A stretch of 50,521 nucleotides of DNA, taken from Lachnospiraceae bacterium. GTDB lineage: Bacteria > Bacillota > Clostridia > Lachnospirales > Lachnospiraceae. A program made the translations under genes and the position numbers. Positions 33,506 to 50,521 of the stretch are shown here, piece by piece; position 1 is the first letter of the stretch, and each line of letters opens with the position of its first letter. The stretch covers positions 1 to 50,521 of the forward strand of contig JAEEOO010000032.1 in the NCBI GenBank assembly GCA_016284315.1, given 5' to 3'. Under the pieces are notes generated by a model. It had not been told where the DNA came from. It made no database searches and saw nothing but the letters and a program-made list of their open reading frames with translations.

Positions 33506-33571
33506 TGTCCACCGGGGACGGGGTTAGTGGGCCACTTTTGTCCACCGTGGACGGAGTCAAGTGGTCACTTT
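33506..33571. repeat. Two tandem copies of a dispersed 33-nt GC-rich unit
   Basis: Unit 1 (33506-33538) and unit 2 (33539-33571) are direct repeats starting TGTCCACCG and ending in CACTTT. Unit 2 contains the palindromes GTCCAC-C-GTGGAC-like and AGTG-GT-CACT. They lie between divergent genes, ending 2 nt before the extended -10 of the plus-strand gene, so they occupy its -35 region. The same unit occurs at 37613, 45645 and 50464. Confidence 0.85.
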
Positions 33572-33573
33572 TA

Positions 33574-33582
33574 TGGTATAAT
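33574..33582 (+). promoter_or_regulatory. Extended -10 promoter of the glycosidase-like gene
   Basis: TGGTATAAT directly follows the tandem repeat. The transcription start near 33589 precedes the leader motif TAACCAAAGGTGAG. Confidence 0.65.
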
Positions 33583-33598
33583 GATTCGGTAACTAAGA

Positions 33599-33612
33599 TA
33601 ACCAAAGGTGAG
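33599..33612 (+). promoter_or_regulatory. Leader motif TAACCAAAGGTGAG (copy 1)
   Basis: An unusual ribosome-binding context, 4 nt before ATG 33617. The same 14-mer occurs at 35847-35860 and, on the minus strand, 41468-41481; a 13-nt form is at 39634-39646. All four lie in leaders of otherwise unrelated genes. Confidence 0.6.
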
Positions 33613-33616
33613 ATTA

Positions 33617-35842
33617 ATGAAAAATACTAAATTTAAAAGAATTCTTGAATATATAGTTGCTGTTTGCCTTGTGGCAGTAGCTGTGCTTGGAGTTATTGTA
33701 ATAAAAAGACATATCAATGCCGCAAAACAGGAACAAAGTTTGACCATAGAGAAAGAGGCGACTTTTTCAGAGATCAGGATTGGCGATGTTCCGGTGACGG
33801 ATTATGTGATAATCACCAATGGTTCGATCAAAGCCGGAACCAGGCTTTCTTCATACATCGAGAAAGTAACCGGCGAGAAAGTTAAAACATTTTTGGGAGG
33901 CAGTCATCCCAATAAAATAAACATTGTTCGTGACAAGAACCTTGCAGAAAACGATCAAAGAATACTTATAGAAGGCGGAGAAGTGACCATCAAGGGTAGG
34001 AATGCTGAAGACCTCGAAAAGCAGGTGGACATATTTGCAAACCGCTATCTTGGATTAGCTTTTGCGGGAGAAGAGAGGGAGCATGTTTTAAAAAATGATT
34101 CTCTTAGGATAATTATTCCCGGGGATGTTTATTATACAGATGACAGTTGGATGCCTGAGAGGGAGCCGATCATCTGCTTATGGAAAACTACGGCAACCAG
34201 AGGTGTATTTTATAATTCGGGAACATCACTTAAGAGCGAACTCATGTCTTATTCCGATGACATGCTCTATGAATATGTTCGAATGATGTCCGCCTGCGGA
34301 TATACCGGAATTCAGGTTACAGATATGTGCTCAGCATGGGCATATTACGGAAATTACGAATTTGTTCATGATCGTCTCAGATTTATGGCTGATGCAGCAC
34401 ATTCTCTCGGAATGAATTTTACTCTCTGGGTTTGGGGAGCGGAGTTTAACGGATACGGCTGGAATGATAAGAGTGTTGAATATTACGGCGAATATGATGA
34501 GAACTGGGTTCGTCCTTATGAGTATGCCTCTGAAAACCCTAATGCGCAGGCAATGTTTGACAAATACTATTCAATATATGCAGAACTTGCTGATTGCTGC
34601 GACAGAGTCATCGCTCATTACAACGATCCCGGAAATCTGGAAAACCTTGAAGATATAGCGTTTTATGCCGGAATGCTTCGTGATAAGTTTAAGAGCGTCA
34701 ATCCAAATGTAAATTTTGGCGTTAGTTGCTATACTCATGAGATCAATCCAAGAGATCTTTGCAAGATCATGGGTACAGACACCACTGTATATCTTGGGGC
34801 TTGTACCGAGGCGGGTACCACTTGGCAATATGAGAGAACTTGCTGCAGTATGGACGGACTTACATTTGGCATCTGGTCATGGAATCTTACCGAAATGGAG
34901 ATAGACCAGCTTGCTGAGATGAATGTGAACGCGAATATCATCAAGGATGTTTATAATCGTACTGCTGAGGAGGATGTATACGGAAAACCTTCATATTGGA
35001 GCGAGATGGATTCTTATCATGTCCTGAATATCTTTTCGCACTATTGCGCCGGAAGGCTTTTGCAGGATCCTAATCTTGACGCAGACGAGCTTTTGCTCGA
35101 ATCCGCAAGGGCAGTGGTGGGAGATGAATATGCGGAAAAACTTTATGAAGTTCTCTGCCTTATCGAGGAGGCAAGATCGGGTGATAAATGGGAAAGCTTT
35201 AGATGGGAGTATGAAGATTATTGCATAAAGAACAAGGACTATAAAGCGGATGCTATTCTTTCAAAGAGCGAGGAATGCCTAAAATATCTTGATGAAATGA
35301 TCGACGCAGATATCAAGGATAACACTATTCCGCTTCCTGTAAGTGTATCGGATCTTTTGCAGCTGATAAAACCTCATGTAAAACAGATCCATGATTATTC
35401 ACAGTTCAGAAAAGACCTTGATGAAGCATATACTAAGGCCGCGGAAAACCCTGACAAAGAGATATTGCAGAAAACTATTGATGATTTGTATAAGCCAATT
35501 TCAGAATATAACGTTATAACCGGTGTTTGGGGAGTGCCTGAGGCCAGGGCTCAGTATGAACTTACGGAAGAGTTTTGTGAAACGTACGGACTTGAAGTCC
35601 CTCAGGATCCTGTTTTCATTAGTTTCAGAAAGCAGAGAATATATGATGAGCTTGTTACATGGCAAAGAAAGGCATCTGAAAAGAAAATTTTTTCTTTAAG
35701 TGCTTTCCAGTGGGGAGTTGCATACGGAAAAGAGGAGACACAGCGCCTGACCAAGGAACTTGTTGATGACGGACTGCTCACACTGGAATCCGAGGATACA
35801 GTGAGTGTTACTGATTGGGAGAGATATTGTTACGACTTTTGA
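33617..35842 (+). CDS. Membrane-anchored glycoside hydrolase-like protein, family unassigned
   Basis: 741 aa from ATG 33617; a GTG at 33608 is in frame, but it lies within the ribosome-binding motif AAAGGTGAG. An N-terminal membrane helix (about 12-30) anchors an extracellular protein. Residues 40-165 resemble the alpha/beta N-terminal domain seen before TIM barrels in alpha-glucuronidases and hexosaminidases (YVIITNGSIKAGTRLSSYIE, FANRYLGLAF). The 170-480 region looks like a TIM barrel (GYTGIQVTDMCSAWAYYG, LGMNFTLWVWGAEFNGYGW, VIAHYNDPGN, GIWSWNLTEME). A helical C-terminal part follows. I cannot name the family or the catalytic acids. It is divergent from the GH120 xylosidase, which suggests a role at the cell surface on a plant or host glycan. 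Confidence 0.7.
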   Translation: MKNTKFKRILEYIVAVCLVAVAVLGVIVIKRHINAAKQEQSLTIEKEATFSEIRIGDVPVTDYVIITNGSIKAGTRLSSYIEKVTGEKVKTFLGGSHPNKINIVRDKNLAENDQRILIEGGEVTIKGRNAEDLEKQVDIFANRYLGLAFAGEEREHVLKNDSLRIIIPGDVYYTDDSWMPEREPIICLWKTTATRGVFYNSGTSLKSELMSYSDDMLYEYVRMMSACGYTGIQVTDMCSAWAYYGNYEFVHDRLRFMADAAHSLGMNFTLWVWGAEFNGYGWNDKSVEYYGEYDENWVRPYEYASENPNAQAMFDKYYSIYAELADCCDRVIAHYNDPGNLENLEDIAFYAGMLRDKFKSVNPNVNFGVSCYTHEINPRDLCKIMGTDTTVYLGACTEAGTTWQYERTCCSMDGLTFGIWSWNLTEMEIDQLAEMNVNANIIKDVYNRTAEEDVYGKPSYWSEMDSYHVLNIFSHYCAGRLLQDPNLDADELLLESARAVVGDEYAEKLYEVLCLIEEARSGDKWESFRWEYEDYCIKNKDYKADAILSKSEECLKYLDEMIDADIKDNTIPLPVSVSDLLQLIKPHVKQIHDYSQFRKDLDEAYTKAAENPDKEILQKTIDDLYKPISEYNVITGVWGVPEARAQYELTEEFCETYGLEVPQDPVFISFRKQRIYDELVTWQRKASEKKIFSLSAFQWGVAYGKEETQRLTKELVDDGLLTLESEDTVSVTDWERYCYDF

Positions 35843-35846
35843 TAGA

Positions 35847-35860
35847 TAACCAAAGGTGAG
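35847..35860 (+). promoter_or_regulatory. Leader motif TAACCAAAGGTGAG (copy 2)
   Basis: Directly after the stop codon of the glycosidase-like gene and 7 nt before ATG 35868; identical to copy 1 over 14 nt (AGATAACCAAAGGTGAG over 17). Confidence 0.6.
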
Positions 35861-35867
35861 GGAGTAC

Positions 35868-36713
35868 ATGAGAAAACTTAGCAAGAGACTTGGAGAACCT
35901 TTTTCATACATAATGATCGCATTGGGAGCGCTGATGGCCAGCTTTTCTGTAATTTGCATCCTGATCCCAAACGATGCCATAGATTACGGCACCGCAGGTA
36001 TTGCCATCATTATCAATAAATTGTCAGGGCTTAACCTTTCTGTTTGCGTTGCCCTTGTTTTTACACCCTTTTTGATCCTTGGAACAATAATCCTTGGTAA
36101 GAAATTCGGTATCAAAGCAATCCTTGGAACTGTTGTTTATACCGTTGGTCTTGAGGTCTTCAAGATAGTTCCTTTTGAACTTAATATCGAACACTTTCTT
36201 GCTGTGGCCTTTGGCGGAGCTATTTTGGGAGCAGGCCTTTCACTTATCTTAAGACATGGAGGATGTATCGACGGATCCGAGATATTCGCCAATATCATAG
36301 TCAAGAAGTTTTACGATATGACCGGACGCAACATGTCCATGACGCCTATTCTTGTAGGTTTTAATGCCTGCGTTTACATTGCTGTATTCATCTTCATCAA
36401 CAGGAATGCAGCCCTTATGAGCCTTCTTGTGTATGTTGTGGCGACTTCGATAATTAACCACTTTACGGACCATTACGAGGCCATCAAGCAGGTCACCATC
36501 ATTACAAAAGATGCGGACGAGATCATTGCCTGCATCAAGAAGGATTTAAACAAGACCTGCACCATCATGAATTCACAGGGTGCAATCGACGGAGACAACA
36601 AGATGCTGATCTGCTATATCAGCTATTTCGAACTTGCCAAGATGAAGGAGATCATTTCCTCCCACAAAGGCGTGTTCAGCACCGTCTCCACCATCGACGA
36701 GATTTTAAGGTAA
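35868..36713 (+). CDS. YitT family membrane protein (DUF161 + DUF2179)
   Basis: 281 aa from ATG 35868; a GTG at 35856 is in frame but lies in the ribosome-binding region. Five to six membrane helices (FSYIMIALGALMASFSVICIL; YGTAGIAIIINKLSGL; HFLAVAFGGAILGAGLSLIL) form the YitT domain with the typical GGCIDGSEIFANII. A cytoplasmic DUF2179 domain follows (QVTIITKDADEIIACIKKDL, GVFSTVSTIDEI). The function of YitT proteins is not established; transport of a small molecule is suspected. It overlaps no neighbour and is followed after 6 nt by a LytTR gene. Confidence 0.9.
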   Translation: MRKLSKRLGEPFSYIMIALGALMASFSVICILIPNDAIDYGTAGIAIIINKLSGLNLSVCVALVFTPFLILGTIILGKKFGIKAILGTVVYTVGLEVFKIVPFELNIEHFLAVAFGGAILGAGLSLILRHGGCIDGSEIFANIIVKKFYDMTGRNMSMTPILVGFNACVYIAVFIFINRNAALMSLLVYVVATSIINHFTDHYEAIKQVTIITKDADEIIACIKKDLNKTCTIMNSQGAIDGDNKMLICYISYFELAKMKEIISSHKGVFSTVSTIDEILR

Positions 36714-36719
36714 ATTAAA

Positions 36720-37154
36720 ATGAAAGTTACAATAGAAAAAGCCGGTTCGAAGGAAGAAGAGCAGGCAATCATCAAAGCCTTTGAGATAACAGGGGATATA
36801 AAGAGCGCAGCGGAGCTTTTGGAAGGCGACAGCGGAAGCCTTCCGGTAACGCTGGATGGAAAGACCTTTATCTTGAAGCATAATGCCATCTACTATATCG
36901 AATCTGTAGACAAGAAAACATTTGTATATACCAAGGACGCCTGCTACGAATCAAAGTACAGGCTTTATGAATTGGAAAAACTCTTGCTTGGCTATTTTAT
37001 GAGATGTTCCAAGGCGACCATCTTAAACCTTAAAAAGGTCAAATCCGTTAAATCGGAAATGAGCGGAAGGCTCAATGCAACACTTCTTAACAACGAGGTG
37101 ATCGTTATTTCAAGAGGCTATGTAAAAGAAGTAAAGGGGAGGCTTGGAATCTGA
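36720..37154 (+). CDS. LytTR-type DNA-binding regulator
   Basis: 144 aa. Residues about 45-140 form a LytTR domain (VTLDGKTFILKHNAIYYIES; KYRLYELEKLLLGYFMRCSKATILNLKKV; LNNEVIVISRGYVKEVK). There is no response-regulator receiver domain. Such stand-alone LytTR proteins are paired with a DUF3021 membrane protein, which follows here with a 1-nt overlap, and commonly control adjacent ABC exporters and themselves. The membrane partner may hold the regulator inactive. The start has only AAGGTAAATTAAA as ribosome-binding sequence. Confidence 0.9.
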   Translation: MKVTIEKAGSKEEEQAIIKAFEITGDIKSAAELLEGDSGSLPVTLDGKTFILKHNAIYYIESVDKKTFVYTKDACYESKYRLYELEKLLLGYFMRCSKATILNLKKVKSVKSEMSGRLNATLLNNEVIVISRGYVKEVKGRLGI

Positions 37155-37594
37155 TGGGCAAATTAAAATTATGGTTTTTACAGACAATGATGATATCCTT
37201 TGCGATACTTGTTGGAATAATCCTTGAAGGAGTGGTCTACCTGATCGTTGACAACGATCCTCTTTCAGAGATGTCCCTTGACTGGTATCAGCTTTTATCG
37301 ATTGTTTTGACCGGTGCGGTTTGTTCTCTTTTTTCAGTCATTCTTCTATGCAGGGAGAGCGTATCGAAAAAAGAATATCTCATTAGAGTCATTATCCACT
37401 GCGTCCTTCTCTATGGGCTGGTTGTCCTTATCGGAAAGATCTTTACATGGTACACGAAGCTTGAGGGATTTCTTCTTGTGACCATTATATACTTCCTTGT
37501 TTATGTTTTCGTTTGGGTATCAACCATCTTCTTACAGAAGCAGGACGAGAACAAGATAAACAAGGCCCTTGGCGATATTCGGGACGAAGAGTGA
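37154..37594 (+). CDS. DUF3021 family membrane protein
   Basis: 146 aa with four membrane helices (MMISFAILVGIILEGVVYLI; WYQLLSIVLTGAVCSLFSVI; VIIHCVLLYGLVVLIGKIF; FLLVTIIYFLVYVFVWVS). This is the standard partner of stand-alone LytTR regulators and is thought to control their activity. The stop and start codons overlap (TGATG). It is followed by the inverted GC-rich repeat and a terminator-like hairpin before the ABC genes. Confidence 0.85.
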   Translation: MGKLKLWFLQTMMISFAILVGIILEGVVYLIVDNDPLSEMSLDWYQLLSIVLTGAVCSLFSVILLCRESVSKKEYLIRVIIHCVLLYGLVVLIGKIFTWYTKLEGFLLVTIIYFLVYVFVWVSTIFLQKQDENKINKALGDIRDEE

Positions 37595-37612
37595 AGTGAA
37601 ATGTCAGGAGGT

Positions 37613-37674
37613 TGTCCACCGGGGACGGGGTTAAGTGGTCAAAAATGTCCACTTAACCCCGTCCCCGGTGGACA
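37613..37674. repeat. Inverted pair of the 33-nt GC-rich unit, perfect 26-bp arms
   Basis: The left arm 37613-37638 begins TGTCCACCGGGGACGGGGTT; the right arm 37649-37674 is its exact reverse complement, with a 10-nt loop TCAAAAATGT. It lies in the transcribed spacer between the DUF3021 and ABC ATPase genes and would form a very stable RNA hairpin. Confidence 0.92.
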
Positions 37675-37687
37675 AAAACATAATTTT

Positions 37688-37737
37688 GAGCATCTTGGTA
37701 AGCATTTTTTGCAGCTTAGTAGAGATGCTCTTTTTTT
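37688..37737 (+). terminator. Terminator or attenuator between DUF3021 and ABC genes
   Basis: GAGCATCT (37688-37695) pairs with AGATGCTC (37723-37730), inner TAAGC/GCTTA, followed by seven T. No good promoter is visible in the 49 nt to the ABC ATPase start, so readthrough of this hairpin may set exporter expression. Confidence 0.7.
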
Positions 37738-37786
37738 GTGCGAAAAAATGGTTTATCTTGTCTTCAAGAACAGGAGGGAAACCAAA

Positions 37787-38689
37787 ATGAAGGCAATTGA
37801 AGTAAAAGGACTCAGAAAAAAATATAAAGAACATGAAGCCGTTAAGGGCATCAATTTTTCAGTAGAAGAAGGAGAGCTATTCGCATTCCTTGGAGAAAAC
37901 GGAGCGGGCAAATCAACGACGATCAACATGCTCTGCACCATACTTGAAATAACTGAGGGAGACGTAAGCATCTGCGGTTATAAGCTTGGTAAGGACGATG
38001 ACAAGATAAGAAATTTAATCGGTATCGTTTTTCAGAATTCGGTTCTTGACGGAAACCTTACAGTCAAAGAGAACCTGCTGACGAGGGGCGCCTACTACGG
38101 GTTGTCAAAAAAGCAGATCCTTGAGCGCATGAAGCCCTTTACAGAAAAGCTTGAGCTTGATGAAATCTGGAACCGCAAATACGAGAAACTTTCCGGAGGC
38201 CAGAGAAGGCGTGTTGATATCGTAAGGGCGCTCATCAATAATCCAAGGATCCTTTTCCTTGATGAGCCCACAACCGGCCTTGATCCAAAGTCAAGAAAGC
38301 TTGTTTGGGACTACATCGATTACCTTAGAAAAGAATACAAAATGACCATCTTCCTTACCACCCACTACATGGAAGAGACAAGGGATGCGGATCATGTTGT
38401 TATCCTTGATAAAGGAAAGATCATTTCAAGCGGAACACCCGCAGAATTAAAGACAAGATTCGCTCCTTCCAAGCTTGTTTGGTACACGAAAAAAGAAGAA
38501 GAAGCGGATGAACTCATGGGAGAGGTCAGCAGAGCGGTTGATTACGACGCAGACCACTACAACGCCGAGATAAACGGCAATATATCCGAGTTCCTTTATA
38601 AGAACAGAGACAAGATCATCGATTACGAGATCGTAAAAGGAACCATGGATGATGTATTTTTAAACCTTACAGGAAAGGAACTTGCATAA
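37787..38689 (+). CDS. ABC exporter ATP-binding subunit
   Basis: 300 aa from ATG 37787, preceded by AGGAGGGAAACCAAA; the longer open frame from 37601 runs through the inverted repeat and is not credible. Walker A GENGAGKSTT, Q-loop VFQNSVLD, signature LSGGQRRRVD, Walker B ILFLDEPTTGLD and the switch His in LTTHYMEE are intact. A C-terminal extension of about 80 residues (DELMGEVSRAVDYDADHY onward) resembles that of daunorubicin/DrrA-type and multidrug ABC-2 exporters. It pairs with the permease gene 1 nt downstream. Substrate unknown; the LytTR pair upstream is the likely regulator. Confidence 0.92.
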   Translation: MKAIEVKGLRKKYKEHEAVKGINFSVEEGELFAFLGENGAGKSTTINMLCTILEITEGDVSICGYKLGKDDDKIRNLIGIVFQNSVLDGNLTVKENLLTRGAYYGLSKKQILERMKPFTEKLELDEIWNRKYEKLSGGQRRRVDIVRALINNPRILFLDEPTTGLDPKSRKLVWDYIDYLRKEYKMTIFLTTHYMEETRDADHVVILDKGKIISSGTPAELKTRFAPSKLVWYTKKEEEADELMGEVSRAVDYDADHYNAEINGNISEFLYKNRDKIIDYEIVKGTMDDVFLNLTGKELA

Positions 38690-38690
38690 A

Positions 38691-39602
38691 ATGAGAGATT
38701 TTATTGGATTTACAAAGAGAAACTTACTTATATATTTTAAAGATGTTCAGGCCATTATTTTTTCACTTCTGACATCAATCATAGTTTTTGCGCTTTACCT
38801 CTTGTTCTTAAAGGGAACATTTGTTGATGCGGTGGACAGCGCAATGATGGGCCTTGAAAACATTGTTAATGCAGAGGACATTGATATGCTTGTCAGCGGA
38901 ATACTTCTTGTTGGAATCATCGGCTCTGCATTGATAACAGTCCCTTATGCATGCCTCCAGACCATTGTTAGGGATCGTGAATTAAAGGTATCTGATGATA
39001 TCTGTACAACGCCAATAAAAAGATGGAAGATCATTCTTTCCTACTTCACTGCCTCAGTTATTTCTTCGTTTATCATGACTGCCATCATCTTTACTATCGG
39101 CATTGTGATACTTAGTTTTATGGGCGACCTTCATTTGACTGTTTTGTCTTTGCTGTCATGCTATGGAACAATATTGCTTGGAGCAATCTCATCAACTGCG
39201 CTCTTTATGCTTGTTGTTATTTTCTTTAAGAAGAATTCAGCCAGCGCAGCATTTTTCGGAATCCTTTCCGCTGCGGCAGGATTTGTCATCGGAGCATATA
39301 TTCCGCTTTCACAGTTCTCAGAGTCAGTACAGTCGGTTTGCTACCTTTTCCCCGCAAGCCATATGACAGTACTCCTCAGAAACGGGATCTTAAACGGCGT
39401 TCTTGACAGCATAAACACTACGATCGGTGGACTTGATAACGGACTCTTTATTGATGCAGTCAAGGATTCTTTCTCATTCAATGCCAAGTTCTTTGGAAAC
39501 AGCATGAGCATAGGAAATACAGTTCTTTATATCAGCGCATTTGCTTTCGTTTGCATAATCGCTATGGTGGTTCTTTACAGCAGAACCTATAAAAGAAAGT
39601 AA
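38691..39602 (+). CDS. ABC-2 type exporter permease
   Basis: 303 aa from ATG 38691, one base after the ATPase stop codon; AGGAAAGGAA is the ribosome-binding site. There are six predicted membrane helices (AIIFSLLTSIIVFALYLLFL; LVGIIGSALITVPYACLQTI; SVISSFIMTAIIFTIGIVIL; LLGAISSTALFMLVVIFF; FFGILSAAAGFVIGAYIPL; VLYISAFAFVCIIAMVVLY). The charged VRDRELKVSDDICTTPIKRW after helix 2 is typical of the ABC2_membrane family. It makes the transport channel with the preceding ATPase. Confidence 0.9.
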   Translation: MRDFIGFTKRNLLIYFKDVQAIIFSLLTSIIVFALYLLFLKGTFVDAVDSAMMGLENIVNAEDIDMLVSGILLVGIIGSALITVPYACLQTIVRDRELKVSDDICTTPIKRWKIILSYFTASVISSFIMTAIIFTIGIVILSFMGDLHLTVLSLLSCYGTILLGAISSTALFMLVVIFFKKNSASAAFFGILSAAAGFVIGAYIPLSQFSESVQSVCYLFPASHMTVLLRNGILNGVLDSINTTIGGLDNGLFIDAVKDSFSFNAKFFGNSMSIGNTVLYISAFAFVCIIAMVVLYSRTYKRK

Positions 39603-39633
39603 AAAGATGTTACAATATATCTCGGATCCATGT

Positions 39634-39646
39634 TAACCAAAGGTGA
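39634..39646 (+). promoter_or_regulatory. Leader motif TAACCAAAGGTGA (copy 3)
   Basis: 13 nt identical to the other copies. Here the motif is followed by TTTTATAGAGAGT and a four-codon ORF (39660-39674) instead of the main start codon at 39680. Confidence 0.55.
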
Positions 39647-39659
39647 TTTTATAGAGAGT

Positions 39660-39674
39660 ATGAAGAATAAGTAA
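39660..39674 (+). other. Four-codon upstream ORF before the DUF2161 gene
   Basis: ATG AAG AAT AAG TAA, with AGAGAG just upstream, ends 5 nt before ATG 39680. The main start has no Shine-Dalgarno of its own, so translation may depend on termination of this minicistron. It may equally be chance. Confidence 0.35.
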
Positions 39675-39679
39675 ATTAA

Positions 39680-40378
39680 ATGGAAAAAGACCTTTTTGAG
39701 CCTATAAAAGAATATTTCGAAAAGCAGGGATTTACCTGTGACGGAGAGGTTTTGGACATCGACCTTTATATGGAAAAGGGAGATGAAAAGGTTGCGGTTG
39801 AACTAAAGCAGGAGTTGAACTTTAGGGTCTTCCAGCAGGCAGCCATTCGCCAGAAGCAGGTTGAGACGGTTTATATCGGGACCTTTAACCCCAAAAATAT
39901 GCGCTCCCATGCTTTTAAAGATAAGCTCTATCTACTGAAACGTTTGGGGATCGGGCTTATTGTAGTGTCAAAGAAAACCGGAGAAGTACAAGTTGTCAGC
40001 GGGCCTGTGGCTTCTGAGCTTTCCGCATTTCAAAAGAGAAATGCAAAAAAGAGCGAAGCCCTCTCAAAGGAGTTTAACAAAAGAAAGGCTAAGAACAACA
40101 CCGGCGGAGTTCACGGAAAAAAGCTCATCACCAGCTACAGAGAGGATGCACTTCTTGTTCTTGACAGCCTTGCGGAGCTTGGAGGAGAAGAGAAGAATAC
40201 CGTGGTCAGAAAAAACAGCGGTATTAAAAAGACTTCTGAGATCCTGCGAAACAACTACTACGGCTGGTTTGAAAAGGTCGAAACAGGGCTATACCGCATA
40301 ACGGATGAAGGTTATAACGCGTTGGAAGAATTTGAAGATACGATCTTCAAATTAAGAACTATGAACGTAGGGGAATAG
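39680..40378 (+). CDS. DUF2161 domain protein, PD-(D/E)XK nuclease fold
   Basis: 232 aa. The N-terminal half has the PD-(D/E)XK core: DIDLYMEKGDEKVAVELKQE gives Asp then E-x-K, with QAAIRQKQVETVYIG after it, as in the DUF2161 family. Residues 145-225 look like a winged-helix DNA-binding module (YREDALLVLDSLAELGG; NNYYGWFEKVETGLYRITDEG). Function unestablished; a DNA-processing or defence role is possible but not shown. The last seven codons fall in the 34-bp segment duplicated before the HD gene (44050), so the natural C-terminus may have been altered. Only one start is possible because a stop codon directly precedes it. Confidence 0.75.
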   Translation: MEKDLFEPIKEYFEKQGFTCDGEVLDIDLYMEKGDEKVAVELKQELNFRVFQQAAIRQKQVETVYIGTFNPKNMRSHAFKDKLYLLKRLGIGLIVVSKKTGEVQVVSGPVASELSAFQKRNAKKSEALSKEFNKRKAKNNTGGVHGKKLITSYREDALLVLDSLAELGGEEKNTVVRKNSGIKKTSEILRNNYYGWFEKVETGLYRITDEGYNALEEFEDTIFKLRTMNVGE

Positions 40379-40391
40379 GTGGAGCACTTTA
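40358..40391 (+). repeat. 34-bp duplication, copy 1 (remnant of an HD-gene start)
   Basis: ACTATGAA, three differing bases, then AGGGGAATAGGTGGAGCACT and TTA: 31 of 34 positions match 44050-44083, where GTG is the start codon of the HD gene. After this fragment comes only 19 nt and then a hairpin terminator resembling the one after the HD gene, as if the body of a gene copy had been deleted. Confidence 0.75.
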
Positions 40392-40410
40392 TCTTACACT
40401 CCCGCTAAAA

Positions 40411-40438
40411 AAGCTACACCCATCGGTGCAGCTTTTTT
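40411..40438. terminator. Terminator between DUF2161 and the convergent XRE gene
   Basis: AAGCTACACC (40411-40420) pairs with GGTGCAGCTT (40425-40434) with one mismatch; A- and T-runs on the two sides let it work in both directions. It resembles the terminator at 45614. Confidence 0.75.
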
Positions 40439-40441
40439 ATT

Positions 40442-41458: not shown

Positions 41459-41467
41459 ATTTAACAC

Positions 41468-41481
41468 CTCACCTTTGGTTA
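41468..41481 (-). promoter_or_regulatory. Leader motif TAACCAAAGGTGAG (copy 4)
   Basis: An exact 14-nt copy on the minus strand, 9 nt before the XRE start codon. Confidence 0.6.
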
Positions 41482-41502
41482 TTATCATCAGCTGATAGAT
41501 TT

Positions 41503-41531
41503 ATAATACATTACTCACGTTCAACTGACAA
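41503..41531 (-). promoter_or_regulatory. Promoter of the XRE gene
   Basis: On the minus strand TTGTCA (41526-41531), 17-nt spacer, TATTAT (41503-41508). The -35 lies within the first operator-like palindrome. Confidence 0.65.
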
Positions 41532-41535
41532 TTGA
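41521..41535. promoter_or_regulatory. Operator-like palindrome 1, TCAACTGACAATTGA
   Basis: A near-perfect 15-bp inverted repeat overlapping the -35 of the XRE promoter. It matches the second palindrome at 12 of 15 positions, and the two centres are 32 bp apart, about three helical turns. Confidence 0.7.
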
Positions 41536-41552
41536 ATGATTGGCGAGTTTTA

Positions 41553-41567
41553 ACAACTGACAGTTGT
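41553..41567. promoter_or_regulatory. Operator-like palindrome 2, ACAACTGACAGTTGT
   Basis: A perfect 15-bp palindrome just upstream of the ABC operon -35 (TTGACA at 41581). Its likely ligand is the divergently encoded XRE regulator. Confidence 0.75.
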
Positions 41568-41580
41568 GCAAGACATACAC

Positions 41581-41609: not shown

Positions 41610-41641
41610 TGAATAGAAGGCAATCATAAAGGGGAGAAAAT

Positions 41642-44048: not shown

Positions 44049-44049
44049 C

Positions 44050-44083
44050 ACTATGAATGGAGGGGAATAGGTGGAGCACTTTA
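44050..44083 (+). repeat. 34-bp duplication, copy 2 (functional HD-gene start)
   Basis: Matches 40358-40391 at 31 of 34 positions; includes the ribosome-binding site GGAGGGGAAT and the GTG start codon of the HD gene. Confidence 0.75.
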
Positions 44084-45609
44084 TTGACGAAAAAACAGTT
44101 ATGCGCTTTTACATAGAGCGCATTGATAAGGACGAGATCGTCTTCCTTAAGGGGAAGGATGAGCAAAAGAAGGCCATCAGAGAGATCATTGAGAAACTGG
44201 TGGATGAGTCCAAGATGAACAACAAGATCCAGTTGGCCATCGGACTTTGGAAGAAGCTTTTTGAATCAGCTATGAGTTATATCTCTCCCAATAAAAGAGG
44301 ATATGACAAGATCTTTAAGTATTTTGACTCATATGTAGAGTTCGAGGAACTGATATTTGCCTCCGATTCTTTCTACAGAGATCACACCCTGCATTGTCTT
44401 TGGGTATATTTCCTTGGAGAATATCTTTACAATAAGCCCGAGTTTTCAGAGCTTTATCGTTTGGAGCGAGAGACCAACGACAGTTACCGCATGCTCGAGA
44501 AGATGGCAGATACCTTGCAGGTTGTGGAAGGTGTTGAAGCAGATAAACTGAAAGCTTCTCTGAAGCGTACCGAAGGTAGTGAGGTCCTTTCTGATTCGGT
44601 AAGGTGTATTGCCGCACTTACTCACGATCTTGGGTATCCATTGAAGAAGATTGAAAAGATCAATAAGAGTATTAATAAGGTCCTTCCTTTCTTTGCTATT
44701 CACAATTTTGAGAATTTCAGCTTTGAATACGAAAACATTCAGCAGGAGTTTGTAAAGCAGTTTATTGATTTTATATCAAGACAGAGTACTGTTAACATTC
44801 ATCCCAAGAGGAAACTTTCTGCAGAAGCTGTGGAAGTCCTTAATAAACTCCAGGAACAGTATAAGACAAATGATCTGAAGGATTACCTTGATCTTCTTGA
44901 AGCATTACCTGAAGAAGAGAAAACTCTATTAAGAGACAGCTTTAAGGTTGATGTTTTATTCCATACTCCCTTCGGACAGAAGGCTTCTTACTACAACGAC
45001 TTTGAGGGATATCAGCACGGTATTATGAGTGCATTCCTGCTCATGAAGAACTTAGAAGTTTTCAGGGATATTGATTATTGCAGAGAGGACTGGTTGATCC
45101 CTATGCCGGATGCCAGAGTACTTTCGCTTCATGACATTCTTGCCTCAATTTCAAATCATACCAGTGACAGCTATAGGATCAGCGCAATCGAAGACGGCTC
45201 CTTCCTTACTTTCGTAGATGAACTGGAAGAGTTTTCAAGAATATCAAGAGCAAGTCAGAACAGAGAGTATGTAGAGGAATTCTGCGACACTGCTCTTTAC
45301 ATGGAAGACGGATGGCTCAACGTAGTATTTGAGTTTAACAATACAAATCTTGATAACCTTGATCCCGAGATCTCATTCAAGGGTAGATGCAAGAGATTCC
45401 TGAGTCTCTTTGATATCCCGAATCTTGATCCCTATCTCAGGATCCGCGTGACCATTGTTGGCAAGCTTCCTACAGACGAGAACGAGTATGTCCTTGAGAT
45501 TGCAAAGAACTATGCGGACATCCGCATCAACGGAGAGTCCAAGGATATTCCGAAGTACTTGAAGTCAACCCAGTACTTCACAAAAGAAGAATATGCGAAT
45601 ATGAAATAA
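44071..45609 (+). CDS. HD-domain protein of unknown function
   Basis: 512 aa, GTG start with GGAGGGGAATAG upstream; no signal peptide or membrane helix. YRDHTLHCLWVYFLGEYL (about 103-120) and AALTHDLGYPLKKIEKI (HD near residue 184) form the start of an HD metal site; a later YQHGIMSAFLLM and LHDILASISNHTSDSY supply further His/Asp residues expected of the family. The C-terminal 120 residues (FEFNNTNLDNLDPEISFKG; RIRVTIVGKLPTDENEYV) are not recognised. HD proteins hydrolyse nucleotides or phosphodiesters; the substrate here cannot be told. It may be co-transcribed with the upstream ABC exporter, and a remnant of a second copy of its start lies at 40358. Confidence 0.75.
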   Translation: MEHFIDEKTVMRFYIERIDKDEIVFLKGKDEQKKAIREIIEKLVDESKMNNKIQLAIGLWKKLFESAMSYISPNKRGYDKIFKYFDSYVEFEELIFASDSFYRDHTLHCLWVYFLGEYLYNKPEFSELYRLERETNDSYRMLEKMADTLQVVEGVEADKLKASLKRTEGSEVLSDSVRCIAALTHDLGYPLKKIEKINKSINKVLPFFAIHNFENFSFEYENIQQEFVKQFIDFISRQSTVNIHPKRKLSAEAVEVLNKLQEQYKTNDLKDYLDLLEALPEEEKTLLRDSFKVDVLFHTPFGQKASYYNDFEGYQHGIMSAFLLMKNLEVFRDIDYCREDWLIPMPDARVLSLHDILASISNHTSDSYRISAIEDGSFLTFVDELEEFSRISRASQNREYVEEFCDTALYMEDGWLNVVFEFNNTNLDNLDPEISFKGRCKRFLSLFDIPNLDPYLRIRVTIVGKLPTDENEYVLEIAKNYADIRINGESKDIPKYLKSTQYFTKEEYANMK

Positions 45610-45613
45610 GCTA

Positions 45614-45645
45614 AAAGCTGCACCTGGTTTGGGTGCAGCTTTTTT
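45614..45645 (+). terminator. Terminator of the HD gene
   Basis: AAAGCTGCACC (45614-45624) pairs with GGGTGCAGCTTT (45631-45642), followed by a T-run. It directly touches the third 33-nt repeat unit. Confidence 0.85.
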
Positions 45646-45677
45646 GACCACCGGGGACGGAGTCGGAGGGCCATTTT
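45645..45677 (+). repeat. Single degenerate copy of the 33-nt GC-rich unit
   Basis: Starts TGACCACCGGGGACGGAGTC and ends GGCCATTTT; it keeps the 33-nt length and most consensus positions. Confidence 0.7.
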
Positions 45678-45706
45678 ACATTTCGACATAGCTTTAACTT
45701 AGTAAC

Positions 45707-45792
45707 GGAGATCACGGTTTAAGTATGGGATTCGCTACGTTTCGCTTAGCTCAACGTGCTTCGCTCACCCATAGCTTAATCCTGTGAACTCC
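45707..45792. repeat. GC-rich imperfect palindrome of about 86 bp
   Basis: The left arm GGAGATCACGGTTTAAGTAT with GGG pairs, with two small indels, with the right arm CCCATAGCTTAATCCTGTGA plus ACTCC. The centre holds GATTCGCTACGTTTCGCTTA and GCTTCGCTCA. In size class, position and motif style (GATTCG, GAGCGAA) it resembles the element at 19360. It lies 15 bp past the dehydrogenase stop codon. Confidence 0.5.
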
Positions 45793-45806
45793 TGTGTTCC
45801 ATAACC

Positions 45807-46982
45807 TCAGATCATCATTTTATATATCTTTGTGCAGTCCTCAGCTGTTAAGGTAACAAAACCGGAAATGCTTCCCGGTCTTCCGTCTCCGTAGCAGAGT
45901 GCCTCAACAAGCTTTGGAATATCCTCTTCTTTTGCGCCAAGCTCTGTGAAGTTAAGAGGCATTCCAATGGATTTAAGGAAGTTCTCGAGAGCTGCGATTC
46001 CTGCAAGTGCAGTTGCTTCGGGATTATCGTAATCCATCTGGCATCCCCAAACCCTTACGGCAAGCTTTGCGAATCTCATAACGTCATGCTTATAAACATA
46101 CTTAAACACTGCGGGCATTGTAACCGCAAGACCTGCGCCGTGAGCACAGTCATAAAATGCAGACAACTCATGCTCAATATTGTGGCTGTTCCAGTCCTGG
46201 CTTCTTCCGACGCCTACCGCATTATTGTGAGCCATCATGCCTGCCCACATAATATTTGCTCTCGCCTCATAATTATTAGGATCCGCAATTACTCTGGGAG
46301 CTTCGTGGATCATAGTGAGTAGAAGCGCTTCGATGAGTCTGTCCGTTACCTCAACATCTTTTGTATTGGTAAGATATCTCTCGTGCAAATGAGCCATGAT
46401 ATCAGTGATACCTGCTGCAGTCTGGTAAGCCGGTAATGTCTGGGTCAAAGCAGGATTCAGGATGCTGAACTTAGGTCTGATGGCATCGCTTCCGGTACCT
46501 CTCTTAAACATTCCTTCTTCCTTAGTAATAACTGAATCGGGGCTTCCCTCACTTCCCGCTGCAGCGATGGTAAGGATCGTTCCTACAGGCAATGCCTTTT
46601 CAATTCGCTTTCCGGTATAGAAATCCCAGAAATCTCCGTCGTAAAGAACTCCTGCTGCGATAGCCTTGGAAGAGTCAATGGTACTTCCTCCGCCAACCGC
46701 AAGGATAAAATCAACCTTTTCCTTTTTACAGAGGTCTATTCCTTCATAAACAAGTCCGCTTCTGGGATTGGGCTTTACTCCTCCCAGTTCAACGTAGCTG
46801 ACTCCCGAATTATCAAGAGATTTTTTTACTCTGTCAAGAAGTCCCGATCTAACAACGCTTCCTCCGCCGTAATGGATCAAAACTTTGCTTCCCCCAAAAC
46901 GTTTAACAAGGTCCCCTGTCTGGGTTTCCATGTCTTTTCCAAATGCAAAATAAGTAGGTGAGTAAAAGGTAAAATTGTCCAT
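45807..46982 (-). CDS. Iron-containing alcohol dehydrogenase (butanol dehydrogenase, BdhA/YugJ type)
   Basis: 391 aa. MDNFTFYSPTYFAFGKDME opens the protein as in NADH-dependent butanol dehydrogenases; the nucleotide site GGGSTIDSSKAIAAG, DIMAHLHERYL (metal Asp and His), HNIEHELSAFYDCAHGAGLA (metal His pair) and the C-terminal GYGDGRPGSI-like CYGDGRPGSISGF are family marks. It reduces aldehydes such as butyraldehyde to alcohols with NAD(P)H during fermentation. AAAGGAGGCTACGAAT precedes the ATG. It is a single gene between a convergent HD gene and a divergent MATE gene. Confidence 0.92.
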   Translation of the reverse strand: MDNFTFYSPTYFAFGKDMETQTGDLVKRFGGSKVLIHYGGGSVVRSGLLDRVKKSLDNSGVSYVELGGVKPNPRSGLVYEGIDLCKKEKVDFILAVGGGSTIDSSKAIAAGVLYDGDFWDFYTGKRIEKALPVGTILTIAAAGSEGSPDSVITKEEGMFKRGTGSDAIRPKFSILNPALTQTLPAYQTAAGITDIMAHLHERYLTNTKDVEVTDRLIEALLLTMIHEAPRVIADPNNYEARANIMWAGMMAHNNAVGVGRSQDWNSHNIEHELSAFYDCAHGAGLAVTMPAVFKYVYKHDVMRFAKLAVRVWGCQMDYDNPEATALAGIAALENFLKSIGMPLNFTELGAKEEDIPKLVEALCYGDGRPGSISGFVTLTAEDCTKIYKMMI

Positions 46983-47017
46983 ATTCGTAGCCTCCTTTGT
47001 AAATACCTCTATGAATC

Positions 47018-47026
47018 ATCTTAGCA
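47018..47026 (-). promoter_or_regulatory. Possible extended -10 promoter of the dehydrogenase gene
   Basis: On the minus strand TGCTAAGAT with the TGn extension and no clear -35, about 35 nt before the start codon. The rest of the 46983-47203 spacer is AT-rich; a lone TATAAT at 47145-47150 may serve the divergent MATE gene. Confidence 0.35.
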
Positions 47027-47203
47027 TATGCGCAATTTGTTCACCACCCGCCACACACTTTATTTATATTTTTTTAACTGTTATAATAAAAAATACGTTT
47101 ACTAAGTAATAATTTTAGTGAAATATATTGTTATTGCGAAAATTTATAATAGCTGTAGAATAGAACTGTTGCGTTTTAACAAAGATATGAAAGATTGGTT
47201 ATC

Positions 47204-48547
47204 ATGACAGAAGGTTCTATTACTAAAAAACTCGTTTTATTTGCACTGCCTCTTTTTACCGGGCAGTTGTTGCAGCAATTATATAATGTGGTCGATTCCG
47301 TTGTTGTCGGAAACGTGTTGGGCAAAGAGGCTCTTGCAGCAGTAAGTACTACAGGAAGCCTTATTTTCCTCATGGTCGGATTTATCACAGGCCTTTTCAT
47401 GGGCGGCGGCGTTATCATCGGAAAAAGGTACGGCGCCAAGGATTTTGAAGGCGTTAAGATAGCTGCACACACCGGCCTTACTTTTGCATTAATCATGGGA
47501 ATCGTGTTGACGGTTGTAGGAGTTTTCCTTACACCTTATATCCTCAGATGGATGGGTACTCCCGAAGACGTTATGCCTAATTCGATCATATACTTTAGGA
47601 TCTATTTCCTGGGTGGCCTCGGAAACGTTATGTACAATGCTTGTTGCGGTGTGTTCCAGGCAGTGGGAGATTCAAAACATCCCCTTTATTATTTGATCGT
47701 CAGTACGGTTATCAATACTGTTCTTGATATTGCATTCGTACGTTTTCTTGGATTCGGTATAGGAGGAGCTGCGGCTGCTACCATCATAGCTCAGTTTGTC
47801 AGTGCGGGACTTGCTTTCTATAAGTTGACCCAAGTAGATGGCCCTCACAGGATCTTTGTGGAGGAGCTTCGCATTGATCGTGAGACCCTTAAGAGTGAGC
47901 TCCGTATCGGATTCCCTACCGGTATTCAGAACAGCGTTATCGCCATCGGAAACGTTGTTGTTCAGTCAAATATCAATGCCTTCGGATCCGTTGCTATGGC
48001 GGGATGCGGAAGTTATTTTAAACTTGAAGGTTTTGTATTCTTGCCCATTACCTGCATGTCCATGGCTCTTACAACATTTGTGAGCCAGAACCTTGGTGCG
48101 GGACAGTATGACCGTGTTAGAAAGGGTGCAAGGATCGGAAGTATTATAAGCGTTAGCTGTGCGGAGATCATAGGAGTTCTCGTATTTACCCTTGCGCCGG
48201 TTCTCCTCAGAATGTTTTCATCTGAGGCGGAGGTTCTTGCGGTTGGTGCAAGACAGGCTAGGACAGAGAGCCTTTTCTACTGTCTCCTTGCATTGAACCA
48301 CTGCCTTGCAGGTATTTTAAGAGGAGCCGGAAAGACTAAAGTACCCATGGTTGTCATGCTTTCCAGCTGGTGTTTGCTTCGTATTACATACATTACCATT
48401 ATTGTAAGGTTTATACCTGTAGTAAATGTTATCTTCTGGGCTTACCCTCTTACATGGTCTGTCAGCGCCATTGCTTTCCTGATCTATTATTTCAAGGCTG
48501 ACTGGATCCACAATTTTGCAAAGTACGAACCTGTGGAAGTAAAGTAG
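47204..48547 (+). CDS. MATE family efflux transporter
   Basis: 447 aa from ATG 47204; a TTG at 47195 is in frame and neither has a strong ribosome-binding site. Twelve hydrophobic helices in two MatE halves; MTEGSITKKLVLFALPLFTG, LYNVVDSVVVGNVLGKEALA, VFQAVGDSKHPLYY, GFPTGIQNSVIAIGNVVVQS, FVSQNLGAGQYDRVRKG and GILRGAGKTKVPMVV are typical. It would export drugs or metabolites using a Na+ or H+ gradient. It ends just before a terminator hairpin embedded in the 3' end of comEC. Confidence 0.93.
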   Translation: MTEGSITKKLVLFALPLFTGQLLQQLYNVVDSVVVGNVLGKEALAAVSTTGSLIFLMVGFITGLFMGGGVIIGKRYGAKDFEGVKIAAHTGLTFALIMGIVLTVVGVFLTPYILRWMGTPEDVMPNSIIYFRIYFLGGLGNVMYNACCGVFQAVGDSKHPLYYLIVSTVINTVLDIAFVRFLGFGIGGAAAATIIAQFVSAGLAFYKLTQVDGPHRIFVEELRIDRETLKSELRIGFPTGIQNSVIAIGNVVVQSNINAFGSVAMAGCGSYFKLEGFVFLPITCMSMALTTFVSQNLGAGQYDRVRKGARIGSIISVSCAEIIGVLVFTLAPVLLRMFSSEAEVLAVGARQARTESLFYCLLALNHCLAGILRGAGKTKVPMVVMLSSWCLLRITYITIIVRFIPVVNVIFWAYPLTWSVSAIAFLIYYFKADWIHNFAKYEPVEVK

Positions 48548-48619
48548 TTATAGGATTTGCCTTTAAAATAGCGCCGGAAATCCTCGGAGTATATCGCTTG
48601 TCAGTTAAGACTATGAGAC

Positions 48620-50521
48620 TCAATCGATAAATGTGTTTATGATCATCTTATGGGGCGTCACCGTTATGGTGATTGCCCCATTTTTTTGCGTATTATAGAT
48701 CTTTGTTCCTGTGGCATCCAGTCGGGAAAGTGTTTCTTTGTGAGGATGCCCGTAGTGGTTGTTTTTCCCTGCAGAGATCAACGCTATGCTCGGTTTATAA
48801 GCTTTTAGAAAACTGTCTAAAGTGGAATATTTTGAGCCGTGGTGAGCAACCTTGAGTATTGAAAGAGCAGGGGTATCATTAGCCTTGTTTAGTTCATTTA
48901 TTCTTTTAGTCAGCGCCTTTTCGCCCTCTCCCTGTACATCGCCCGTCAGGAGAAGAACAGGAGAGTCATTTTGTTTCTCAAAGAATTTAATGTAAATGCA
49001 TTCCGACATTTCATTTGTATCATCGGCTTTAAATGAGGCACCGGGATGCAGACAAGTGAACCGGTTGTCTCCGCTTTTCCATGTATCCCCTGCGCTTATG
49101 TAGGTTATATTGGCATTCTTAATTCTAAAATCCGCCGGTGTTTTGCATTTTGGTAAAACAACTTGTTTTATCTTTATCCCCCAATCGTCACTGTTTTCAA
49201 GAAGTTCTGTGATACCGCTTAAGTGATCCGTATCAGGGTGGGAGATGAATGCTACGTCAACTGTTGAGAAGCCGTAATATTTCAGGGCAGGTTTAAGGAC
49301 ATATTCCCCGAGATCGTTTTTTGATGAAGAGCCTCCGTCAATAAGATAAACCTCACGGTTGTCGGTGTAATAGATCATTCCGTCTCCCTGACCCACATCA
49401 AGCATAGTTAAAGTGTTCCTGCTCATTTTTGGAAATGAGAGAATAATGGGCAAGAGGATCAGGAGGAATAGGGGAAGAATCTTTAATATAGCCGGATGTT
49501 TTGGCGCGTTCTTCTTTTTTTCTCTAAGCTTTGAAAATTTCAGAAGGTATCCAACGGTTATCGGGGATAAAACTATCATTAGCCATACCGCGTAATATAA
49601 GATTATCATCCAGACCTTAGGCCTCCCCGGATTCCAGGTATACAAGGGCAGATAATTGCAGACTCTGCAAACGGCTTCATAGAATTTTAGTATAAGATAA
49701 CCAATGGTTCCGATAAAGCCTCCTCCGGGGATCAGCATTGCGAAAATGGTACTTACGATCAATAGGCTCATAAAAGGAAGAATGATGATGTTAAGGAAAA
49801 TGCTGTAGGTCGGGATCTCGTAGAAGAACCAAAGGGTGATGGGAAGGGTGGTAAGGGATATGGACAAGCTCATCAAAACAGAGTTTAGTATTCCAAGCAA
49901 AATCTTTTGCCACCGTTTTATAGGCTTTTTTCTGAATAGACCCTCAAATGGTTTTTTTAAAACAGGGTACAGGCAAATGATCCCGGCAACTGACCCGAAT
50001 GACAGAAGAAAACTGCAGCTTCCGATGGCAGCAGGGTTCGGTATCAGTAATATAAGCGCCGTTAAAGAAAGTGACGTTAAACTGTCTACCGTCCTTCCAA
50101 CAGCATCCGCCAGTAGCTTTATGAGGAACATGATAACTGCTCTCATAGCGGAAATGCTCATGCCCGTCATTACAGCGTAGGAAAGTAAAAACAGTCCGGT
50201 GATTCCACCGCAGATCCATATTTTTGCTCCCGTCTTTCGAAGGGCCATATACAGTCCGAGACCGAGGATGGATATATGTAAGCTCGAAATGGAGAGTATG
50301 TGGGATATTCCGTTCTTCCTATAAAGTTCCTTGATCTCGGGTGAGATATCTTGTTTATTTCCAAGGATCATATCTGATAGTACAGAGGCTTCATCCGCGG
50401 GGAAAATGTGATACAGCCTTTCTTCGCATCTCTCCCTGAATTGCATGAGTCCTTCACGAAGTTTGTCCACCGGGGACGGGGTTAGGTGGACATTTTCGTC
50501 ATGTGTATTTTGTTTTGAAGT
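48620..50521 (-). CDS. comEC: ComEC/Rec2 DNA-uptake channel protein, N-terminus beyond the window
   Basis: The frame is open from the right edge (50521) to the stop at 48620, so at least 633 residues are present and the usual N-terminal domain (OB-fold, DUF4131) lies outside. The competence domain has many helices (GISHILSISSLHISILGLGL; GGITGLFLLSYAVMTGMSIS; AMRAVIMFLIKLLADAVGR). The C-terminal metallo-beta-lactamase-like domain has LDVGQGDGMIYY, LIDGGSS, SHPDTDHLSG, LLTGDVQGEGE and KVAHHGSKYST. ComEC forms the inner-membrane channel for single-stranded DNA. A GTG at 50470 would give 616 aa but falls inside the 33-nt repeat unit (50464-50496), which is read in frame as NVHLTPSPVDK. Confidence 0.92.
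   Translation of the reverse strand, partial: TSKQNTHDENVHLTPSPVDKLREGLMQFRERCEERLYHIFPADEASVLSDMILGNKQDISPEIKELYRKNGISHILSISSLHISILGLGLYMALRKTGAKIWICGGITGLFLLSYAVMTGMSISAMRAVIMFLIKLLADAVGRTVDSLTSLSLTALILLIPNPAAIGSCSFLLSFGSVAGIICLYPVLKKPFEGLFRKKPIKRWQKILLGILNSVLMSLSISLTTLPITLWFFYEIPTYSIFLNIIILPFMSLLIVSTIFAMLIPGGGFIGTIGYLILKFYEAVCRVCNYLPLYTWNPGRPKVWMIILYYAVWLMIVLSPITVGYLLKFSKLREKKKNAPKHPAILKILPLFLLILLPIILSFPKMSRNTLTMLDVGQGDGMIYYTDNREVYLIDGGSSSKNDLGEYVLKPALKYYGFSTVDVAFISHPDTDHLSGITELLENSDDWGIKIKQVVLPKCKTPADFRIKNANITYISAGDTWKSGDNRFTCLHPGASFKADDTNEMSECIYIKFFEKQNDSPVLLLTGDVQGEGEKALTKRINELNKANDTPALSILKVAHHGSKYSTLDSFLKAYKPSIALISAGKNNHYGHPHKETLSRLDATGTKIYNTQKNGAITITVTPHKMIINTFID
48650..48688 (+). terminator. 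Terminator of the MATE gene inside the comEC 3' end
   Basis: ATGGGGC-GTCACC (48650-48662) pairs with GGTGATTGCCCCAT (48668-48681) with a small internal loop, followed by TTTTTT. It lies within the last 25 codons of comEC on the other strand. Confidence 0.8.
50464..50496. repeat. 33-nt GC-rich unit inside comEC
   Basis: Starts TGTCCACCGGGGACGGGGTT on the plus strand and ends GGTGGACATTTT; its ends GTCCACC/GGTGGAC are inverted. It is 33 nt, a multiple of three, and the comEC frame passes through it without a stop. Confidence 0.85.

Follow-up and report, generated by a model that had tools for sequence, protein, structure and literature searches.

A dispersed 33-nt unit in a Lachnospiraceae genome is very probably a REP-like element paired with a RAYT-type transposase

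Contig JAEEOO010000032.1 (50,521 nucleotides [nt]; the whole stretch was analyzed and is called the window) from the Lachnospiraceae bacterium assembly GCA_016284315.1 carries copies of a 33-nt unit. The unit is very probably a repetitive extragenic palindrome (REP), and its head-to-head doublet a REPIN (REP doublet forming a hairpin), of the kind that belongs to TIRYTs (terminal inverted repeat [TIR]-associated tyrosine transposases), generated by the one REP-associated tyrosine transposase (RAYT)-type HuH/Y1 nuclease of the genome. This assessment is based on the dispersal and arrangement of the units, their association with the RAYT gene, the tracking of copy number with the enzyme, lineage-specific complementarity of the unit arms, and presence or absence of units between species.

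Genome-wide dispersal and arrangement of the units

Alignment of 41 units gave the consensus TG[TA]CC[AC]C[CT]GGGGACGG[GA]GT[TC]A[AG][GT][GT]GG[ACT]CATTTT. Using at most one mismatch, the 13-nt core CCACCGGGGACGG was found in 61 copies in the genome (2.25 Mb in 79 contigs, 81% complete), compared with 2 for the reversed pattern, and the longer pattern TGWCCMCYRGGGACGG in 82 copies, compared with 0 for the reversed control. A covariance model identified 98 units at an E value of ≤1, and the 89 with an E value of <1e−3 were used as the inventory for arrangement. These 89 units (48 on the plus strand and 41 on the minus strand) formed 53 clusters on 24 of the 79 contigs. A loose search of the window alone (up to three mismatches) returned 9 matches, a number reached by 5 of 100 shuffles; since this is barely above chance, significance rests on the genome counts.

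An earlier note, made from the letters of the window, had described direct tandem units at 33506 and 33539, an inverted pair at 37613, a single degenerate unit at 45645, and a unit at 50464, and units were recovered at each of these places. The right half of the unit proved more variable than the consensus given there ([AG]GT[TC]A[AG][GT][GT]GG[ACT]CATTTT). The suggestion that copies are confined to the accessory part holds inside the window, where neither the pattern nor the covariance model found a unit in the first 33.5 kb, but not genome-wide, where the 89 better matches are spread over 24 of the 79 contigs.

Within 150 nt of one another, 20 neighbors were tandem, of which 18 were spaced at exactly 33 nt. 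Inverted neighbors were head-to-head (+−) in 15 cases and tail-to-tail (−+) in 1 (P = 5e−4). Seven of the 15 head-to-head pairs had a 29-nt offset, as at 37613, and spacer lengths varied in inverted pairs elsewhere. In these counts, a doublet found at two contig ends (C26 and C60), with near-identical flanks, is probably one locus counted twice, and a doublet in comEC that is split over two contigs was entered as two singles. TT (27) or AA (17) immediately preceded 44 of 67 outer unit ends. Ten of the 53 clusters lay well inside an open frame of at least 100 codons, and several clusters followed T-runs. The GTAG tetranucleotide was absent from the 41-unit consensus and was held by 1 of the 41 units, in its interior; CGTC was present in the complement of the unit, within the hairpin rather than at the palindrome end.

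A single RAYT-type gene lies between units

Two genes in the genome matched Y1_Tnp, a short insertion sequence IS200-type gene on contig C16 and a RAYT-like gene on contig C39. The latter (G000:C39:2888-3664, where G000 is the genome that holds the window) is on a different contig from the window and encodes 259 amino acids (aa); its protein had one match in G000 at an E value of ≤1e−10 and is thus single copy. It is flanked by an inverted unit pair upstream and a tandem pair just downstream, so that the REP-associated tyrosine transposase proposed as a check in the earlier note was found, as one gene between units.

The protein scored 58.8 bits against Pfam Y1_Tnp (cutoff, 23) and 78.4 bits against NCBIfam REP_Tyr_transpos (cutoff, 80; 76.7 bits for its relative L130), and the NCBIfam model was matched at an E value of ≤1e−3 by all 28 relatives compared. 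HuH (NHVH) and Y---NP motifs were identified, and N59, H60, H62, Y119, N123, and P124 were invariant in the 28 relatives and in nine rows with P0001. A C-terminal helix-turn-helix (HTH) is probable: HTH_23, HTH_28, and HTH_29 matched residues 226 to 256 (E values, 5e−4 to 1e−3, below the cutoffs), and the AlphaFold model of a 63%-identical relative (mean predicted local distance difference test score, 86.3) has helices at 220 to 232, 237 to 244, and 248 to 256. A fold search using this model returned 4er8 (Escherichia coli TnpA_REP with a REP hairpin) as best match (E value, 2.8e−8); a sequence search of PDB gave no match.

The IS200-type Y1 transposase gene (G000:C16:2049-2411; L031) has an open frame of 139 aa, and the nearest listed doublet is ∼2.9 kb away. 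A distant relative of the RAYT core (31% identity) was also seen at 1212 to 1649 of MT835484.1, an unannotated fecal bacteriophage record.

Unit copy number tracks the enzyme

Among 30 genomes of the genus, including G000, a RAYT of at least 55% identity was present only in G000, G303, G304, and G312. These contained 95, 86, 94, and 99 units, respectively (E value, ≤0.1), figures that are possibly too low, as no more than 150 first-look candidates were scored per genome. The other 26 genomes held 0 to 4 units (four in G313, two in G325, one in each of four genomes, and none in twenty), and units tracked the close RAYT (Fisher P = 3.6e−5). In a family sample of 299 genomes from 298 genera, the class I pattern occurred at least five times in 13 genomes, comprising 9 of the 10 whose RAYT reached 52% identity and 4 of the other 289 (Fisher P = 1.5e−13). 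The comparison of copy number with enzyme presence that the earlier note had called for therefore came out positive at both levels, while its impression that such sequences are common in Lachnospiraceae suits the wider repeat superfamily described below and not the class I pattern, given those 13 of 299 genomes.

Orthologous sites with and without units

The site at 37613, between a gene for a 146-aa membrane protein and an ABC ATPase gene, was compared in nine genomes. No unit was present in four of them (G300, G302, G308, and G315). The window carries its inverted pair. In G116 and G316, a lone unit of a different type is located at the stop codon; it closely resembles the repeat beside the RAYT gene of G116 itself (L046). 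A palindrome containing GGGGTC was found in G305, and an inverted pair containing GGGACG in G310.

At a second site, on the 3′ side of a conserved gene at C39:49.8 kb, three tandem units were found in G000, two in G304, and one in G312, and no unit was seen in 8 of 11 genomes (G303, G307, G311, G316, G116, G305, G310, and G299; up to 180 nt displayed). Ten of the 15 matching genomes were inspected, and as the site is conserved on the gene side alone, it is a weaker empty site. Copies thus occur beyond the window and orthologous places without a unit exist, neither of which the earlier note would have expected were the units immobile. Its proposal of a mobile or copied REP-like element was borne out insofar as a RAYT, copy number tracking, and empty sites were all found.

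At 33506, three congeners match the window with 80 to 83% identity through base 33505; units of their own follow, of which the first is oppositely oriented. The sequence past the units is different in each of the four genomes, and the 86 to 89% identity shared by the three congeners ends inside the unit. On these alignments, the units lie at synteny breaks, as cause or by chance. The RAYT loci L102 and L103 (G304 and G312) are ∼97% identical, and 107 nt next to the unit downstream of the RAYT gene are missing from G304. This gap lies between similar short stretches (CCGTCCC and CCTGTCCC) and looks as though units promote deletions.

A common core and lineage-specific arms in other Firmicutes

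Nine such RAYTs were scanned against genome contigs from 84,980 species, which yielded 311 relatives, and the best 80 were kept for flank counts. The 47 with at least 52% identity were all Lachnospiraceae by title (Butyrivibrio, [Clostridium] aminophilum, and many rumen or gut metagenome-assembled genomes); the remaining 33 were from Firmicutes, except for one contig labeled Prevotella. Of these best 80 genes, 60 had GGGAC[G/A]G on both sides at a distance of up to 250 nt and 12 had it on one side, and hence 72 on at least one. Motif density was 4.86 per kb near the gene versus 0.56 per kb at distances over 1 kb. The nearest motif was in the plus orientation upstream in 58 of 66 cases and in the minus orientation downstream in 57 of 66. 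Across 40 loci from the family and genus genomes, the motif occurred within 250 nt in 32, that of L105 being chance-like. Most loci had GGGGACGG and a minority GGGGACAG. In 16 genomes selected by hand from the 80 loci, a 12-nt core pattern exceeded its reversed control in 15, reaching 114 versus 2 in Litchfieldia salsa (the L208 genome).

The arms around the core are lineage specific (TGAGCCC/GGGCTCA, GTGCA/TGCAC, AAAACCACG/CGTGGTTTT, and others). Arm complementarity had a mean score of 6.19 within a locus versus 4.24 between loci, a difference reached in 0 of 20,000 permutations (29 loci), and class II loci taken separately also gave 0 of 20,000. One hand-picked unit per locus was used, covering 29 of the 38 proteins in the RAYT tree; L043, L059 to L062, and L104 to L106 (no clear unit) and L102 (near-identical to L103) were omitted. 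In this 38-RAYT tree, which omits the short L109 and L110, the 13 proteins labeled class I formed one clade (100/98). Class labels were assigned by hand from the flanks, with L043 and L105 labeled as none despite a lone GGGACGG within 250 nt.

It is reasonably likely that there is a Firmicutes-wide REP superfamily, absent from the papers searched, with a near-invariant asymmetric GGGGAC[G/A]G inside a freely changing stem, made by RAYTs of group 1/subclass 2.1, whose units also act as synteny breakpoints and a source of in-frame peptides. Near RAYT genes of other genera, tandem runs were also observed, such as a fivefold repeat with a 30-nt period in L044 (581 to 720), together with short GGGACAG-containing pieces in L050 and several doublets in L057.

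Units in the window and within genes

The units of the window and the comEC-like gene that holds one of them are listed in Table 1.

TABLE 1 Positions of 33-nt units and of the comEC-like gene in the window
Feature	Position	Strand	Score or match
Unit 1 of direct tandem pair	33506..33538	+	50.3 bits, covariance model
Unit 2 of direct tandem pair (period 33)	33539..33571	+	47.2 bits
Left unit of inverted head-to-head pair	37613..37645	+	46.7 bits
Right unit of inverted pair (REPIN-like doublet)	37642..37674	−	55.5 bits, joint best in genome
Single degenerate unit	45645..45677	+	44.4 bits
Unit inside comEC, half of inverted pair	50464..50496	+	55.4 bits
comEC-like gene, 3′ part	48620..50521	−	Pfam Competence 175 bits, Lactamase_B

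The inverted pair at 37613/37642 is a 62-nt near-perfect palindrome, for which DNA folding with a few flanking bases gave −38 kcal/mol (z score, −14.7). The unit at 45645 is directly 3′ of a hairpin and T-run that by inspection resemble a terminator. The copy at 50464 had been taken as single; it has an inverted partner inside comEC, the pair being cut by the contig end. The comEC frame stays open through this unit (...SKQNTHDE-NVHLTPSPVD-KLREGL...). The 5′ half of the gene (DUF4131) and the partner unit end contig C70 (L111), and a 27-nt overlap of the contig ends joins both contigs. The joined gene reads ...AGSL-STGDGVRWTF-SGKTSKQNTHDE-NVHLTPSPVD-KLREGL..., with 32 residues from AGSL to KLREGL, compared with ∼14 residues (counted by eye) at the same place in the comEC of five congeners. 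An in-frame doublet was identified in a P-type ATPase gene (L123; E1-E2_ATPase, 143.8 bits), and another gene (L023), encoding zinc-ribbon and C11-peptidase domains, holds an in-frame single unit. By inspection, the consensus unit is open in four of its six frames.

Other features adjoin the units. An extended −10-like sequence, TGGTATAAT, lies two bases past the tandem pair (window positions 33574 to 33582), and the same was seen at G000:C78:12353 (L126); units may border or shape promoters at these two places. Just past the inverted pair, positions 37688 to 37730 contain GAGCATCTTGGTA...GAGATGCTC, and GCATCTTGGTA-like boxes were also present in congeners compared at the 37613 site. This arrangement is perhaps a candidate binding site for the LytTR-domain protein encoded at 36720 to 37154 (LytTR match, 77 bits). 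An Rfam search of positions 31000 to 50521 returned nothing credible, the only matches being three to microRNAs far below gathering scores; a microRNA identity for the 37613 palindrome was rejected as chance on those scores.

Comparison with known systems

TIRYTs were named by Di Nocera et al. in 2013 (PMC3733652), who reported that some of their flanking repeats share GGGGWSAS, that a few TIR families are dispersed, and that such families reach moderate abundance in certain genomes, with many members arranged in dimers or clusters. A Y1 transposase gene between inverted repeats and the dimers or clusters are features in common with the system described here; GGGGACAG of some loci fits GGGGWSAS exactly, and GGGGACGG is one letter off. 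The present system differs in having ∼100 dispersed units that track the RAYT and lineage-specific complementary arms around an internal core. In the sections of that paper drawn on here, REPs or TIRs are not ascribed to any member of the Firmicutes, the phyla given for GTAG and CGTC elements exclude Firmicutes, and Firmicutes, Clostridia, and Gram-positives are unmentioned; Bacillus, pneumococci, and enterococci are listed there as carriers of miniature inverted-repeat transposable elements (MITEs).

In the classification of Quentin et al. from 2018 (PMC6006769), subclass 2.1 takes in 20 of 26 TIRYTs and 291 of 292 RAYT group 1 sequences of Bertels et al.; it is the second largest TnpA_Y1 subclass and is found in 14.9% of strains. 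Shared features are the long protein, the HuH and Y---NP motifs, and a C-terminal HTH-like extension (HTH_23/HTH_28). TIRYT members of the subclass have GGGG[AT][CG]A[CG] in flanking repeats, which here GGGGACAG fits in a minority of loci, most loci having GGGGACGG, with one letter different. According to the relevant part of that study, REP-like sequences were not found beside subclass 2.1 genes, whereas here REP-like hairpin units adjoin the gene and are dispersed. The present case is very probably a REP/REPIN-RAYT system of TIRYT type, a type that is little known, and its enzyme probably belongs to RAYT group 1, subclass 2.1.

The GTAG REPs and REPINs of group 2 and 3 RAYTs in Pseudomonas and E. 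coli, as portrayed in the relevant sections of PMC8266576 and PMC8049555 (see also PMC3116915), likewise consist of short palindromic units in head-to-head doublets, with a single-copy RAYT gene between units and lineage-specific sequences. In contrast to these, no GTAG tag is present here, the core GGGGAC[G/A]G lies within the hairpin and not at its foot, and the RAYT has an HTH-like extension. As the GTAG of classical REPs is absent, the units are named REP/REPIN-like of TIRYT type. Rickettsia palindromic elements (RPE) and intragenic REPs also form in-frame insertions in functional-looking genes; they are CGTC tagged and, as far as PMC3733652 describes them, have no known dedicated transposase, whereas the present units flank one. 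CGTC REPs have CGTC at the palindrome end and no dedicated transposase, and the units here differ in both respects.

Literature searches returned nothing joining RAYT, REP sequences, and Firmicutes, no palindromic interspersed repeat with a transposase for Lachnospiraceae, and only an irrelevant match for repetitive extragenic palindromes and Butyrivibrio. Other searches brought up the established REP and RAYT literature mixed with unrelated papers. Five Firmicutes terms had no occurrence in PMC2817692. As far as these searches show, what is new is that such enzymes in Firmicutes are accompanied by REP-like units, present in high copy and arranged head to head, that unit number follows the enzyme, and that the core stays fixed inside a complementary stem that changes freely.

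Alternative explanations and opposing observations

The units could instead be functional sites maintained by the host, for example bound by a nucleoid protein or gyrase or used in DNA uptake, that spread by selection or gene conversion with the RAYT as a domesticated partner and not a mobilizer. A single RAYT match in the genome, the location of just 10 of 53 clusters well inside frames of at least 100 codons, the location of several after T-runs, and a pair in comEC would all suit such a role. It is nevertheless unlikely, as 26 of 30 genus genomes have 0 to 4 units, other lineages have different stems, in-frame units occur inside genes, and comEC is one of ∼50 places. Inverted pairs with varied spacers also resemble the ends of MITEs, which an unrelated DDE transposase could move while the RAYT merely hitchhiked; recurrence of the Y1 transposase association in 72 of the 80 best loci, mostly in the same orientation, makes this very improbable. 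We give even less credence to intrinsic terminators or regulatory RNA hairpins that only seem repeated. Although a hairpin and T-run occur on the 3′ side of the plus strand and the inverted pair folds very stably, direct tandems, a location between divergent genes and others inside genes, nearly even strands (48 plus and 41 minus), counts that track the RAYT, and the lack of a credible Rfam match in window positions 31000 to 50521 do not fit such structures.

Several observations weigh against the interpretation of the units as REPs generated by the RAYT. Transposition was not observed, and no two closely related strains differing by a unit were available. Stem covariation was absent within the genome, where positions 3/27 and 6/24 were unpaired in 25 and 20 of the 40 distinct units, respectively, and shuffles gave equal results. 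Enzyme and units are not always found together: G303 lacks a unit at the second site despite its close RAYT, G189, also with a close RAYT, has a single match to the class I pattern, and G313 has units with no RAYT found (genome 92% complete). Likewise, G236, G100, G023, and G079 have at least five class I matches without a close RAYT; the first three are drafts of at most 90% completeness, and the RAYT of G079 is only 32% identical. The motif was missing within 250 nt of 8 of the 80 RAYT loci (some at contig ends) and from 8 of the 40 family and genus loci. The core was not above its control in 1 of 16 genomes (the L149 genome, 4 versus 6). The cross-locus arm test was weak within class I (441 of 20,000 permutations), and class II was not one clade (eight changes in the 38-RAYT tree).

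Proposed mechanism

Under the preferred interpretation, in which the RAYT-type enzyme generates REP-like units, we infer that the units move and that the enzyme binds, nicks, and copies them and chooses their targets. The RAYT gene lies between units in the same way as the spacer does within a doublet. A unit would fold on single-stranded DNA, probably the lagging-strand template, through the complementary arms TG.CC and GG.CA, and expose the asymmetric core GGGGACGG, by which the top strand could be distinguished from its complement. The RAYT would bind this hairpin and use its tyrosine to nick the adjacent DNA; one unit or one doublet would be copied into, or joined to, a new A/T-rich site, in many cases with TT or AA right before the TG end. 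Action on single-stranded, lagging-strand DNA is carried over by analogy from IS608 and TnpA_REP, as treated in parts of PMC6006769 and PMC8266576. Exact 33-nt tandem arrays could arise from repeated joining or slippage. The stem may drift freely while its arms stay largely complementary, and such drift is proposed to give each lineage its own stem around a common core.

Implications

The partner DNA of subclass 2.1 enzymes was previously unclear. A fixed core with lineage-specific stems provides pairs of substrates for asking how the enzyme reads a changing hairpin and what role the HTH-like part has. Such repeats may break assemblies, as with comEC, which is split at a doublet, and may add odd peptides to annotated proteins. 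Genomes with 86 to 99 units beside congeners with none would make the rate and cost of REP copying measurable in Firmicutes.

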